Source: Actinomycetota bacterium (lineage in GTDB: Bacteria; Actinomycetota; Acidimicrobiia; Acidimicrobiales; Ilumatobacteraceae). From it: a stretch of DNA of 55,796 nt. Position 1 is the stretch's first letter, and the number at the start of each line of letters is the position of its first letter. The stretch lies in the NCBI GenBank assembly GCA_009702755.1, contig WLHL01000006.1, positions 1 to 55,796 of the forward strand, written 5' to 3'. Under the pieces are notes generated by a model. The model was given only the letters and a program-made list of their open reading frames with translations, did not search any database and was not told where the DNA came from. Positions 45,400-54,372 of this stretch are shown here, one piece after another. Position numbers and translations under genes: made by a program.

Positions 45400-45475
45400 T
45401 GGCACTCCCAACGGGATTCGAACCCGTGCCGCCACCTTGAGAGGGTGGTGTCCTAGGCCACTAGACGATGGGAGC
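45400..45475 (-). tRNA. tRNA-Glu (anticodon CUC)
   Basis: The minus strand folds into a cloverleaf: acceptor GCTCCCA/TGGGAGT (first pair G-U), the D arm with CTAGTGGCCTAGG, anticodon stem CCACC/GGTGG with loop CTCTCAA (CUC), and T-arm GGGTTCGAATCCC. The 3' CCA is encoded (45400-45402). The sequence TAGATT about 14 bases upstream may be the -10 of its own promoter. Confidence 0.96.
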
Positions 45476-45555: not shown

Positions 45556-45579
45556 CACACACATTTGTGCTTGATTTTG

Positions 45580-45651
45580 TTGGGGAACAAGGACTCGAAC
45601 CCTGAATAACAGTACCAGAAACTGCTGTGTTGCCAATTACACCATTCCCCA
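45580..45651 (-). tRNA. tRNA-Gln (anticodon CUG)
   Basis: The minus strand gives acceptor TGGGGAA/TTCCCCA, D arm GTGTAATTGGCAAC, anticodon loop TTCTGGT (CUG), and T-arm AGGGTTCGAGTCCTT, with discriminator A. The 3' CCA is not encoded. The U1-A72 pair is typical of tRNA-Gln. It lies downstream of gltX and ydcF on the same strand. Confidence 0.95.
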
Positions 45652-50524: not shown

Positions 50525-52108
50525 TTAGTTGGAGTGAAGAAGCCCGTAGACCAGAGATTCCTCGAGCGCCTGCCATGAGGCTTCGATGATGTTCGTGGAC
50601 ACGCCAATCGTGGTCCAGCTTCTGTCGCCGTTGGTGGCGTCAATGAGTACTCGAGTGATAGCGCCCGTCGCACTGCCGCCATCCAAGATGCGCACCTTGT
50701 AGTCCACGAGGTGAATCTTGTCGATCTGAGGGAAACTGGAACGCAGGCTGGCGCGGAGAGCCGCGTCAATTGCGTTCACCGGACCATTGCCAGCAGAGAC
50801 ATTCTCAAAGAGCTGATCCCCGACCCACACTTTGACAACAGCTTCCGTGGTGAAACGACCATCGGATGCTTCATCAGTCACAACGCGCATTGTCTCGACG
50901 CGGAACTGGTCCTGTGTCCATCCCGTCGCACGACGCATCAACATCTCGAGAGATGCATCCGCGGCCTCAAAGTGATACCCCTCGTGTTCAAGACGCTTGA
51001 GATCTTCAATCACGGTGTTCACAGCAGCGCCATCGAGGGTGAGACCCAGTTCATCAGCTTTTACTTCGATGGTTGCGCGACCGGCCATCTCGCTCACAAC
51101 AAAACGAGTTCCATTTCCAACGATTTCCGGATCAACGTGTTCATACGCATCACGAGCACGCTTGATTGCGGACACGTGCAGGCCTGCCTTGTGAGCAAAT
51201 GCCGACGCACCCACGTACGGAGCCTGCGGATTCAACGGACGGTTAAGCACTTCGGCAACGTGATTACTCACCGCGGTAATGCGCGACAAATGACCTTCTG
51301 GCAAACAGCTAAAGCCCATCTTCAATTCAAGGTTTGGAATCACTGTGGTGAGGTTGGTGTTACCCGTACGCTCACCCAAACCATTCAACGTGCCCTGCAC
51401 GTGACGTACTCCGGCCAATACTGCTGCCATTGAGTTTGCAACGGCACAGCCAGTGTCGTCATGACAATGGATGCCAAGCGTTGCGTCGTTGCCGACGAAT
51501 GCCTTTACTTTGCCGACGATCTCAGCGACTTCATGAGGGAGTGATCCACCATTGGTATCGCACATCACCAAGTGCGTGGCACCCTTCATGACTGCGGCTT
51601 CCACCACGCGCATCGCGAACTCTGGATTGTTCTTATAGCCATCGAAGAAATGCTCAAGATCAACCAGCACTTGACGACCATGACCATTCAAGAAATCAAC
51701 GGAATCCGCAACCATCAACACGCCTTCGTCAAGCGTTGTTTGCAGAGCATCAGTGACGTGATAATCCCAGGACTTTGCAACGATGCACACGGCCGATGTA
51801 TTCGCATCAAGCAAGTTGCGCAGAGTGGCATCATCGTCAACTTTTCCTTTAGGGCGACGGGTGGAGCCGAAAGCCACAAGAGTTGAGTTACGGAAATTGA
51901 GTTCCTTTGCCGCGCGAGCGAAGAACTCGATGTCTTTCGGATTCGCACCTGGCCAGCCGCCTTCAATGAAGTGGACGCCGAGATACTCCAGCTGTTCTGC
52001 AATTCGCAGCTTGTCTTCGACTGTTGCCGATACGCCTTCCACCTGCATGCCATCGCGCAGTGTGGTGTCGAACGCTTCGACCATTTCAATTGAGGTGGTG
52101 GTGTTCAT
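50525..52108 (-). CDS. cimA: Citramalate synthase
   Basis: This 527-residue protein belongs to the DRE-TIM metallolyase family. Residues 12-20 hold the FDTTLRDGMQ motif, HCHDDTG is in the barrel, and a C-terminal LeuA-type allosteric domain (from about 390) follows. Length and N-terminal GMQVEGVS mark the CimA group rather than 2-isopropylmalate synthase. It condenses pyruvate and acetyl-CoA to (R)-citramalate, a threonine-independent route to isoleucine. A GGAG lies 8 bases before the ATG. An attenuator-type leader precedes it. With leuB and ilvE upstream, the isoleucine pathway is partly reconstructed here. Confidence 0.93.
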   Translation of the reverse strand: MNTTTSIEMVEAFDTTLRDGMQVEGVSATVEDKLRIAEQLEYLGVHFIEGGWPGANPKDIEFFARAAKELNFRNSTLVAFGSTRRPKGKVDDDATLRNLLDANTSAVCIVAKSWDYHVTDALQTTLDEGVLMVADSVDFLNGHGRQVLVDLEHFFDGYKNNPEFAMRVVEAAVMKGATHLVMCDTNGGSLPHEVAEIVGKVKAFVGNDATLGIHCHDDTGCAVANSMAAVLAGVRHVQGTLNGLGERTGNTNLTTVIPNLELKMGFSCLPEGHLSRITAVSNHVAEVLNRPLNPQAPYVGASAFAHKAGLHVSAIKRARDAYEHVDPEIVGNGTRFVVSEMAGRATIEVKADELGLTLDGAAVNTVIEDLKRLEHEGYHFEAADASLEMLMRRATGWTQDQFRVETMRVVTDEASDGRFTTEAVVKVWVGDQLFENVSAGNGPVNAIDAALRASLRSSFPQIDKIHLVDYKVRILDGGSATGAITRVLIDATNGDRSWTTIGVSTNIIEASWQALEESLVYGLLHSN

Positions 52109-52157: not shown

Positions 52158-52178
52158 AAAAAACCGCCCTAAGGCGGT
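52158..52178 (-). terminator. Attenuator terminator upstream of cimA
   Basis: On the minus strand ACCGCC-TTAG-GGCGGT is followed by six U residues (plus strand AAAAAA at 52158-52163). It stands between the leader ORF and the cimA ribosome binding site, 50 bases before the cimA ATG, so it should stop transcription before the gene unless it is prevented from folding. Confidence 0.85.
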
Positions 52179-52184
52179 CGGTGC

Positions 52185-52209
52185 GCGCACGTCGGAGGCC
52201 GGCGTGCGC
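52185..52209 (-). promoter_or_regulatory. Leader hairpin after the cimA leader ORF
   Basis: The arms GCGCACG and CGTGCGC on the minus strand form a 7-bp stem with an 11-base loop. It begins at the last base of the leader stop codon. It could be the pause or anti-terminator hairpin of the attenuator; exclusive pairing with the terminator stem is not evident. Confidence 0.6.
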
Positions 52210-52274
52210 TAGAGAATAATGATGATTGACGCAGCAGAGCCGAGAAGGCGGCGGGAGATGCTTGCGGTCAACAT
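52209..52274 (-). CDS. Leader peptide of cimA (21 aa, isoleucine-rich)
   Basis: This is a 21-codon ORF from ATG 52274 to TAG 52209. The product starts MLTASISRRLLGS and ends in SIIIIL. Ile codons ATC, ATC, ATT and ATT are followed by CTC and then the stop, so 9 of 21 residues are Ile or Leu. No ribosome binding site precedes the ATG; instead a GATACT -10 element ends 7 bases upstream, which suggests a leaderless message. It has the form of an attenuation control peptide: ribosomes starved of charged tRNA-Ile would stall at the run. The ORF is too short to have another likely role. Confidence 0.85.
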   Translation of the reverse strand: MLTASISRRLLGSAASIIIIL

Positions 52275-52281
52275 GAGAGAA

Positions 52282-52310
52282 AGTATCGCCGTATTTCAGG
52301 CAATCGTCAA
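52282..52310 (-). promoter_or_regulatory. Promoter of the cimA leader transcript
   Basis: TTGACG (52305-52310) and GATACT (52282-52287) on the minus strand are 17 bases apart, a near-consensus vegetative sigma-70/sigA promoter. The predicted start falls at 52274-52275, on or next to the leader ATG. Confidence 0.8.
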
Positions 52311-52428: not shown

Positions 52429-53346
52429 CTAAGCGAGCTCGAGCCAGTCCTTGTACTGCGGCAGTTGGCCACGAACGGCCTTGCCGTAAATGTCGGCCAC
52501 CTGCTTGGTGATCGGGCCGGGGCAAGGAACGCTGCGGTCATCCACCGAGTTAATGGCGCTGACTTCAGCGGCGGTACCCACACAGAAGATTTCTTCAGCG
52601 ATGTAGAGGTCGGAGCGAGCGATATTGCCCGTCTCGACTTCGTAGCCAAGGTCTTGAAGAATCTTGATGACGCTCCACTGGGTAATGCCTTCCAGTGCTC
52701 CAGCCGAGAGTGGCGGTGTGATGACCTTGCCATTGCGAACAACGAAGAGGTTTTCGCCGGTGCACTCGCTGACAAGACCTTCCATATTGAGAAGGATTGC
52801 TTCGTCGTATCCAGCGCGCAACGCCTCAACCTTTGCGAGTGAGGAGTTTGCATAGTTTGCAACTGTCTTTGCTGCCGGAGGAAGCATGTTGTGGTCGAGA
52901 CGTTTCCATGAAGAGATCTTCATGCGCACACCCTTGGTCATGGCATCCTCGCCCAAATAAGCGCCCCATGGCCAGCAAGCAATCGCAACGTCAACACTGC
53001 ACGGCAATGTATTCAGCCCCATCTCGCCATATCCGTAATACGCAATCGGGCGGATGTAACAACCCGGCAATCCGGTGGAACGAACTGTCTCACGAGTTGC
53101 ATCAACAATTTCTTGCACCGTGTACGGAATCTCCATACCGAGAATTTTTGCGCTGCGAAAGAGTCGTTCGATGTGCTCGGTCAAACGGAAGACTGCGGGG
53201 CCATCAGCTGTTTCGTATGCACGAATTCCTTCGAAGACACCTGTTCCGTAGTGAAGCGTGTGCGTGAGAACATGCACCTGAGCTTTGTCCCAGTCGACAA
53301 GAGTGCCGTTCATCCAAATTTTCGGTGTTGGGACAAGAGTGGGCAT
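52429..53346 (-). CDS. ilvE: Branched-chain amino acid aminotransferase
   Basis: This 305-residue class IV PLP aminotransferase has the N-terminal IWMNGTLVDWD, HYGTGVFEGIRAY, the PLP lysine in the region AKTVANYANSSLAK, EAILLNMEGLVSECTGENLF and the GTAAEVSAINSVDDR stretch. It transfers the amino group to branched-chain keto acids in the last step of Ile, Leu and Val synthesis. A ribosome binding site (AGGAG, 5 bases) precedes the ATG. It follows leuB after 30 bases on the same strand and probably shares its transcript. Confidence 0.95.
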   Translation of the reverse strand: MPTLVPTPKIWMNGTLVDWDKAQVHVLTHTLHYGTGVFEGIRAYETADGPAVFRLTEHIERLFRSAKILGMEIPYTVQEIVDATRETVRSTGLPGCYIRPIAYYGYGEMGLNTLPCSVDVAIACWPWGAYLGEDAMTKGVRMKISSWKRLDHNMLPPAAKTVANYANSSLAKVEALRAGYDEAILLNMEGLVSECTGENLFVVRNGKVITPPLSAGALEGITQWSVIKILQDLGYEVETGNIARSDLYIAEEIFCVGTAAEVSAINSVDDRSVPCPGPITKQVADIYGKAVRGQLPQYKDWLELA

Positions 53347-53376: not shown

Positions 53377-54372
53377 TTACTTGCCAGCAACGAGTGCGGC
53401 GATTGAGTTTCCGATTTCGACAGTGTTGCCCGTGGGGGCGGTGTCGCAAGCGGTACGAATACGGGCTGCGGCATCGTTTTCGCCCAGGAATTCCAGCATC
53501 AAAGCAGCAGACAAGATTGCTGCGGTGGGGTTGGCCTTGCCTGTACCCACAATGTCAGGTGCTGAACCATGGGATGGCTCAAACATGGACGGACCAGTGC
53601 GAGAAGGGTTGAGGTTGGCCGACGATGCCAAACCGATGCCGCCACTGACGGCACCACCGAGGTCGGTGAGGATGTCACCAAACAAGTTGTCGGTCACGAT
53701 GACGTCATAGCGGTGTGGATCTTCCACGAAGTAGATGCAGGCGGCGTCAACATGGTTGTACGCGGTCCCTACTTGTGGGAACTCTTTTGCAACATCGTTG
53801 AAGGCACGCTGCCAGAGGTCACCCGCGAAGGTGAGCACGTTTGTCTTGTGCACCAGTGTCACGTGCTTGCGCTCGCGCTTCGCTGCAAGTTCGAACGCGT
53901 AACGAATACAACGCTCGACGCCATGGCGCGTGTTGACACTGCCCTGCGTTGCAATCTCATGTGCGGTACCCCGACGAAGAACGCCACCTTCACCTACGTA
54001 CGGGCCTTCGGTGTTTTCACGAATGACAACAAAGTCATGTGGAGTGGTGTGACCAGGTGCAGTGCCTGCGAAAGGTCGCTGATTCACATAGAGGTCGAGA
54101 TCAAAGCGCATCTTCAAGAGAAGACCACGCTCAATGATCCCAGGAGGAACATCAGGGGTGCCCACTGCGCCCAACAAGATGGCATCAAAGTTGCGTAATT
54201 GATTCAGCACATCGTCGGACAAGATCTCACCGTCGCGCAGATACCGCATGCCGCCGAGGTCAAAATCAGTGGTCTCGATGGCGACTCCGGTCGCACGTAC
54301 GACCTTGACGGCTTCCGCCGTGACTTCTGGTCCGATTCCGTCTCCACCAATGAGTGCAATGCGATGTGCCAT
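53377..54372 (-). CDS. leuB: 3-isopropylmalate dehydrogenase
   Basis: From ATG 54372 the protein has 331 residues, an NAD-dependent beta-decarboxylating dehydrogenase (IALIGGDGIGPEVT, IRENTEGPY, the metal/substrate YDVIVTDNLFGDILTDLGGAV segment, FEPSHGSAPDI). It oxidises and decarboxylates 3-isopropylmalate in leucine synthesis and, in the citramalate route, 3-methylmalate toward 2-ketobutyrate for isoleucine. A GGAG five bases upstream supports this start; a longer frame to 54423 overlaps greA. The gene is divergent from greA. Confidence 0.94.
   Translation of the reverse strand: MAHRIALIGGDGIGPEVTAEAVKVVRATGVAIETTDFDLGGMRYLRDGEILSDDVLNQLRNFDAILLGAVGTPDVPPGIIERGLLLKMRFDLDLYVNQRPFAGTAPGHTTPHDFVVIRENTEGPYVGEGGVLRRGTAHEIATQGSVNTRHGVERCIRYAFELAAKRERKHVTLVHKTNVLTFAGDLWQRAFNDVAKEFPQVGTAYNHVDAACIYFVEDPHRYDVIVTDNLFGDILTDLGGAVSGGIGLASSANLNPSRTGPSMFEPSHGSAPDIVGTGKANPTAAILSAALMLEFLGENDAAARIRTACDTAPTGNTVEIGNSIAALVAGK

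Follow-up and report, generated by a model that had tools for sequence, protein, structure and literature searches.

A probable isoleucine-sensing attenuator with a hairpin at the leader stop codon upstream of cimA in Acidimicrobiales

The window considered here is a 55,796-nucleotide stretch of contig WLHL01000006.1 (assembly GCA_009702755.1) from a freshwater actinobacterium of the Ilumatobacteraceae, and the element in question is a leader region on its minus strand in front of cimA, the gene for citramalate synthase. Judging by its layout and by the recurrence of that layout in relatives, this region is very likely a genuine attenuator that senses branched-chain amino acids. It opens with a sigma-70-like promoter, TTGACG-17-GATACT (52282..52310; TTGACG at 52310-52305, GATACT at 52287-52282), whose -10 hexamer ends 7 nt before the ATG (52274) of a leader open reading frame (ORF) of 21 codons, MLTASISRRLLGSAASIIIIL-stop (52209..52274). 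Four Ile codons, ATC ATC ATT ATT (52215..52226), occupy positions -5 to -2 relative to the stop, and codon -1, between the run and the TAG (52211-52209), is CTC for Leu. The first hairpin, hp1 (52185..52209), was placed by folding and alignment; pairing in it starts with the G of UAG, and its stem has 7+3 pairs flanking one mismatch. An intrinsic terminator, GACCGCC-TTAG-GGCGGTT plus a U-tract, lies 29 nt beyond the stop (52158..52179; stem 52179-52162, U-tract to 52158) and has a stem of seven pairs. The citramalate synthase ORF of 527 amino acids (50525..52108) follows, with a GGAG at 52120-52117 and an ATG at 52108; it scores 682.8 bits against TIGR00977, for which the cut-off is 450. An earlier note made from the sequence alone had described the same promoter, leader ORF, codon run and cimA start, all of which we recovered by direct reading of the minus strand. 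It had also seen a hairpin that begins at the stop codon and a terminator with a U-tract, which stand, although it gave their stems as 7 bp and 6 bp, sizes that are not borne out.

Two marks of an amino-acid attenuator are a brief leader ORF whose codons specify the amino acid in which the controlled pathway ends, and an intrinsic terminator between that ORF and the first structural gene. Both are found here, the terminator being recognized from sequence and covariation. The locus also has the form of ilvB-type attenuators, in which a branched-chain run near the stop precedes a terminator, but the regulated gene is cimA rather than ilvB, and no such run was found upstream of the ilvB gene of the window's own genome (L122). 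At gathering scores, the Rfam covariance models matched two tRNAs alone in the window and detected no T-box or other element. When seven leader-bearing loci were searched at E values up to 1, the only matches were Hrs13 (E 0.069) and P9 (E 0.38), each below its family cut-off. The 128-nt leader has a folding energy of -45.6 kcal/mol (z -3.57), with 0 of 200 shuffles as low. Consensus scans of the window did not rise above chance, either for promoters (1 found, 1.8 expected) or for terminators (3 found, 3.9 expected), and it is conservation in the genus, rather than these scans, that sets the layout above chance.

For the genus, cimA loci were picked out in 32 genomes through their protein family and with no RNA model, which gave 29 (L002-L030). 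Two of these were excluded, L012, whose contig begins inside hp1 and whose remainder matches, and L028, which has no cimA 5' end; L031, represented by its 3' part only, was dropped too. In the remaining 27 of the 29 loci, whose upstream DNA is complete and which include the window's own, leader, UAG, hp1 and terminator are all present. Each of the 27 has a TTGACG before the leader stop, and two adjacent hairpins form in every fold. The earlier note had proposed isoleucine as the sensed residue and had asked for conservation of the Ile run in close relatives, and the comparison supports it: Ile stands at codon -2 in 27/27 leaders, at -3 in 26/27 (one, L007, has Glu), at -4 in 27/27 and at -5 in 21/27, and at neither -1 nor -6 in any (0/27).

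The same bounds appear in a wider set of 123 scored leaders, comprising 52 before cimA, 34 before leuB, 34 before ilvB and three without a gene call in that analysis (L078 and L179, which run off their contigs, and L155, which is an ilvB locus on later reading). Branched-chain codons occupy positions -5 to -2 and fall off at -1, as they do at -6 in the cimA and leuB leaders. Among cimA leaders, Ile is found at -2 in 52/52, at -3 in 47/52, at -4 in 51/52 and at -5 in 39/52, with 0/52 at -1 and at -6; Ile occupies -2 in 33 of the 34 leuB leaders. The ilvB leaders have a branched-chain codon at -2 in 33/34 and at -4 in 34/34, and they retain such codons at -6 (59%) and -1 (32%). These frequencies are inflated, since the run was part of the models by which most of the loci were found, and the protein-found cimA set of the genus shows the same limits. 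The specificity of the run tracks the gene, with Ile for cimA, Val-rich codons for ilvB and Ile/Val for leuB. The stop codon is UAG in 122 of the 123 leaders, its G lying inside hp1, and the one exception, L197, has UAA followed by G. It is most improbable that such a leader is a conserved but non-regulatory one with a constitutive partial terminator, given that control codons matched to the gene keep their positions before three different kinds of gene.

Codon choice within the runs is also skewed. Codon -2 is ATT in all 52 cimA leaders, compared with 23% of Ile codons downstream, a comparison uncorrected for relatedness, and the Val of ilvB runs is GTA in 22/24 cases at -3 and 28/29 at -4, compared with 6% in the downstream genes. 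Variants of the Ile run in L007 (I-E-I), L085 (I-I-D-I), L096 (I-M-L-I) and L099 (V-I-L-I) all keep Ile at -2.

Beyond the genus, model R1, built from the 27 genus sequences, found matches in 174 of 221 family genomes and 24 of 27 genera. Forty of the match regions were retrieved, 35 of them before cimA, four before ilvB and one (L078) off the contig end. Model R2, built from 52 sequences, matched 248 of 397 order genomes (146/203 genera), and the 60 order regions retrieved lie before leuB (34), ilvB (23) or cimA (2), with one (L179) off the contig end. Across the phylum at E 0.001, R2 matched 42 of 396 genomes, 21 of these within the order. Fifteen regions came from the 21 genomes outside it: ten stand before an ilvB frame and L204 before leuB; in L206 and L212 a leader and hairpins are present but no cimA-, leuB- or ilvB-type gene is in reach; L208 and L209 resemble chance matches. 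The retrieved matches thus stand mostly before cimA with Ile codons, leuB with Ile/Val codons or ilvB with Val/Leu/Ile codons. The L212 leader ends V-L-L-I-T-stop, with hairpin and terminator, and the frame downstream of it resembles what we take to be prephenate dehydratase.

Six leuB loci, of which five belong to the order and the sixth to the class, were read further, and leuB, ilvE and cimA follow the attenuator in that order in 6/6. There the attenuator is therefore the operon head, whereas in the window it lies inside the operon: the order is leuB-ilvE-(attenuator)-cimA, with the branched-chain aminotransferase gene ilvE (52429..53346) and the 3-isopropylmalate dehydrogenase gene leuB (53377..54372) on the same minus strand upstream of cimA. 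In loci L349-L359, hardly any space separates ilvE from cimA in genera g2 and g9, and it holds no attenuator; in g12 none lies in the 330 nt read upstream of cimA. Two of the three model matches read in g2 are ilvB leaders. Among six loci read by script, an ilvB leader was shown in L360 and L362 only, and L365 has a leuB frame. Elsewhere in the window, genes for tRNA-Glu (CTC) and tRNA-Gln (CTG) lie at 45400-45475 and 45579-45651 on the minus strand.

A paralogous valine-type version of the element, before ilvB, occurs within the genus itself. Of 30 ilvB loci, L130-L132 were left out, and 22 of the remaining 27 (L103-L129, found by protein) have a branched-chain run, UAG, hairpin and terminator, these leaders being recognized through possession of such a run. 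All 22 have Val at -3 and -4. A leader with the run was not found in four of the 27 loci (L116, L122, L123 and L124), and L125 is ambiguous. The window's own genome (L122) and three near kin keep the cimA attenuator and are without the Val-run ilvB one. Leaders with the stop-codon hairpin stand before ilvB in the genus, in the order and in other actinobacterial families; outside the order they include L342, a Nanopelagicaceae record in which hp1 and the terminator seem by eye to share one base, and L344, a Bifidobacterium breve record. Two Streptomyces ilvB leaders have a different layout, in which the run (RILVLGKRVG or RILVIGQRVG) is set apart from the stop, and one leader of this type, L341, still shows by eye a hairpin just past the stop.

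The paired structure is well preserved. In structure-fitted alignments of 52 sequences (A4) and 60 sequences (A6), 98.7% of cells are paired and 10 pairs have changed on both sides (0/500 shuffles in each case); three of the 66 sources (L111, L118 and L119) were unmatched at E 1e-5 and left out. After removal of two redundant rows, 121 of the 123 leaders remained, and two adjacent hairpins are found in 121/121, with hp1 starting within the stop codon in all. The distance from stop to terminator is 23-33 nt (median 27), and that from hp1 to terminator is 0-6 nt. By a simple rule, 116 of the 121 leaders have an ATG or GTG start and five do not, and leader length ranges from 7 to 25 codons. A -10-like hexamer could be placed in 98 leaders and ends 6-9 nt before the start in 83, and Shine-Dalgarno-like strings occur in only 19 of 116. 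The leader ORFs are probably leaderless, as the earlier note had suggested for the window.

Classical attenuators rely on an antiterminator that is mutually exclusive with the terminator, and the earlier note had proposed one, CCGCCGCC in codons 7-9 pairing with the 3' arm of the terminator. We compared duplex energies with those of shuffled sequences over the 121 leaders, using positive controls that gave Z scores of -3.64 and -3.17. The 45-nt leader showed no preference for the 3' arm (Z -0.14 ± 0.10) or the 5' arm (Z -0.01 ± 0.11) of the terminator. Pairing was depleted between the hp1 loop plus 3' arm and the terminator 5' arm (Z +0.78 ± 0.06), and likewise between the hp1 5' arm and the terminator 3' arm (Z +0.80 ± 0.06). 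With the leader ORF and mononucleotide shuffles, pairing with the 3' arm gave Z -0.50 ± 0.11 (n=116), and -0.78 ± 0.18 for cimA; the 3' arms of cimA loci also paired better with leaders of their own class than with leuB or ilvB leaders (mean Z -0.75, n=47). This signal shrinks under stricter controls. Codon shuffles left Z -0.19 ± 0.11 (n=105; cimA -0.30 ± 0.16, leuB -0.20 ± 0.22, ilvB -0.08 ± 0.24), and synonymous draws gave -0.33 ± 0.16 for cimA, a weak residue, and +0.24 ± 0.18 for ilvB. Within cimA, leaders showed no specificity for their own 3' arm (+0.15 ± 0.14, n=47). No mutually exclusive antiterminator specific to its own terminator was therefore found in this set, apart from the weak cimA residue, and the CCGCCGCC proposal retains at best that weak cimA signal and none in ilvB.

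Folding of the window leader with a ribosome at several positions, as the earlier note had advised, gave no switch by base pairing alone, the terminator probability being at least 0.938 at every position tried. A ribosome holding codon -5 in its A site left hp1 at a probability of 0.999, and one that had reached the stop took it to 0. Other candidates fared no better: pairing of an antiterminator with downstream RNA gave no specific signal across the set; a pseudoknot between hp1 loop and terminator cannot be the rule, since some hp1 loops, judged by eye, have no G; and the idea that a stalled ribosome hides hp1 to free an antiterminator strand meets neither hp1-terminator complementarity nor a control-codon run that extends past -2. 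It is thus the layout, Ile as the likely sensed residue, the leaderless start and the conserved run of the earlier interpretation that stand, and its base-paired antiterminator that is poorly supported.

These results bear on the trp/his-type alternative, in which a stalled ribosome would free a leader or hp1 segment, the CCGCCGCC version included, to pair with a terminator arm. Such pairing is the usual mechanism among leader-peptide attenuators, and in the window the duplex of leader with 3' arm and U-tract (-12.6 kcal/mol) nearly equals the terminator stem (-12.9 kcal/mol). In the shortest leaders, however, no pairing segment is left outside the stalled ribosome, because leaders can be 7 codons long. 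We consider this alternative quite unlikely, and give it somewhat more weight than we otherwise would because the weak signal between leader and 3' arm persists in cimA. The lack of a clear base-paired antiterminator lowers the case for the classical kind of attenuator and not the case for a function.

Taken together, the sequence comparisons are probably best explained by attenuation of transcription that depends on translation and senses charged tRNA-Ile. As to how it might act, we tentatively suggest, by analogy, that a waiting ribosome and a folded hp1 together repress the terminator by proximity. Rather more tentative is a fuller model, the folding ruler, in which hp1, anchored at the stop, would gate the last control codon and shorten the path between ribosome and terminator. 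Such a layout would require no alternative RNA structure and could be portable, having been recoded across the order for Ile (cimA), Ile/Val (leuB-ilvE-cimA) or Val/Leu/Ile (ilvB). RNA polymerase would begin at or beside the leader AUG, and a ribosome would initiate on the RNA 5' end and translate as far as control codons -5 to -2. If the first base of the P site is counted as +1, the G of UAG, the first hp1 pair, lies at +12 when codon -2 occupies the A site; this is the mRNA entry, where hp1 would slow tRNA binding and translocation. Given ample Ile-tRNA, the ribosome would pass, melt hp1 and halt at UAG; the terminator, some 27 nt further on (29 in the window), would then have room to fold, and transcription would end. 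When Ile-tRNA is scarce, the ribosome would wait and hp1 would remain folded, placing the ribosome within a few nucleotides of the terminator, so that its last pairs could not close and polymerase would continue into cimA. The model expects transcription to end when the leader is untranslated or the ribosome has reached the stop, and to continue when a ribosome waits at -5 to -2.

Two other accounts would give hp1 a different part. It could be a hairpin at which RNA polymerase pauses and thereby stays in step with the ribosome, antitermination being left to another element. From its end to that of the terminator 5' arm there are some 8-14 nt, a spacing close to that of known pause hairpins, but such a role leaves unexplained why the control codons end so sharply at -2 and why stop and hairpin keep a fixed register, and we regard it as unlikely. 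There is a similarly small chance that hp1 alone, folded 0-6 nt upstream, keeps the terminator from closing inside the RNA exit channel, with the ribosome serving only to melt hp1 at the stop. This would suit the close spacing of the two hairpins, and its ribosome logic resembles the model proposed, in the accessible part of that paper, for ilvB1 of Mycobacterium tuberculosis (PMC13236596), but the operon would then stay on whenever the leader is untranslated, and no direct precedent is known to us or stood among the works listed in a search for related literature.

The folding-ruler model is drawn from work on Escherichia coli, of which parts of the papers were available. There, a ribosome represses a terminator that lies near its stop codon, with maximal termination beyond 27 nt (PMC4824070), and stem-loops from +12 stay folded at the mRNA entry and hinder A-site tRNA binding and translocation (PMC7282821, PMC8861025). 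That the two effects combine here, and in which direction the element responds, we infer by analogy. Several points weigh against this reading, beginning with the weak leader-3' arm signal that persists in cimA. Below 30 bp, the distance effect in E. coli depends on sequence (PMC4824070), and the gap from stop to terminator is only 23-26 nt in 48 of the 121 leaders. The +12 experiments concern two frameshift hairpins, dnaX and HIV (PMC7282821, PMC8861025), and with a longer stem the influence on tRNA binding disappeared (PMC8861025). In the window, hp1 with codon -2 in the A site has a probability of 0.999 if the footprint reaches +11 but is half formed (0.45) if it reaches +15; with codon -1 there, hp1 still forms (0.878) for +11, and its probability is 0 for +15. 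In the genus alignment made with MAFFT, not fitted to structure (21 distinct rows), covariation is modest: two pairs changed on both sides, equalled by 24 of 500 shuffles, and the score of 0.106 (1/500 shuffles) compares with 0.099 after a two-column slide of the partner. The codon run is itself part of the models that picked out the family and order loci, and mainly strong matches were retrieved. Finally, in genera g2, g9 and g12 no such leader was seen within 330 nt upstream of cimA in 11/11 loci.

The trp, his and ilv leader-peptide attenuators of enterobacteria combine end-product control codons, a leader ORF and an intrinsic terminator, and the present element resembles them in all three; it differs in its leaderless leader, its hairpin at the stop codon and the lack of a clear mutually exclusive antiterminator. 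Closer at hand, leader-peptide attenuators of actinobacterial ilvB are known (Seliverstov 2005, PMC1262725; Corynebacterium ilvB-II, PMC10272879; PMC13236596). For M. tuberculosis ilvB1, changing LVVI to AAAA abolishes induction, and a ribosome at the stop has been proposed to mask an antiterminator (PMC13236596). As described in the parts of these papers available, such leaders share with ours a peptide with branched-chain codons and a terminator, whereas here the gene is cimA or the group leuB-ilvE-cimA, the codons are dominated by Ile, the hairpin starts from the stop codon and there is no clear antiterminator. Those parts describe no attenuator of cimA or leuB, and among the matches listed in the open-access literature we found none for cimA and none in Acidimicrobiales.

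Repression of a terminator by a nearby ribosome itself, which we propose here from the geometry, is the feature shared with E. coli pyrBI, although pyrBI, as presented in the accessible part of PMC4824070, senses UTP through polymerase pausing and not charged tRNA. The leaderless poly-cysteine attenuators of mycobacteria (Canestrari 2020) are likewise short leaderless ORFs with control codons in an actinobacterium, but they respond to cysteine and, as PMC13236596 has it in part, act by translation attenuation. A stem-loop from +12 of the P site is shared with the dnaX and HIV frameshift stem-loops (PMC7282821, PMC8861025, in the parts available), although no frameshift is proposed for the cimA leader.

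The proposed mechanism makes sharp predictions on codon register and spacer length, and it may explain attenuators without a clear base-paired antiterminator, a matter that the accessible part of the 2005 study left open for actinobacterial ilvB (PMC1262725). The comparison shows one attenuator layout naturally recoded for different end products, and such an element would provide freshwater actinobacteria and their order with a dedicated charged-tRNA sensor for the threonine-independent route to isoleucine.
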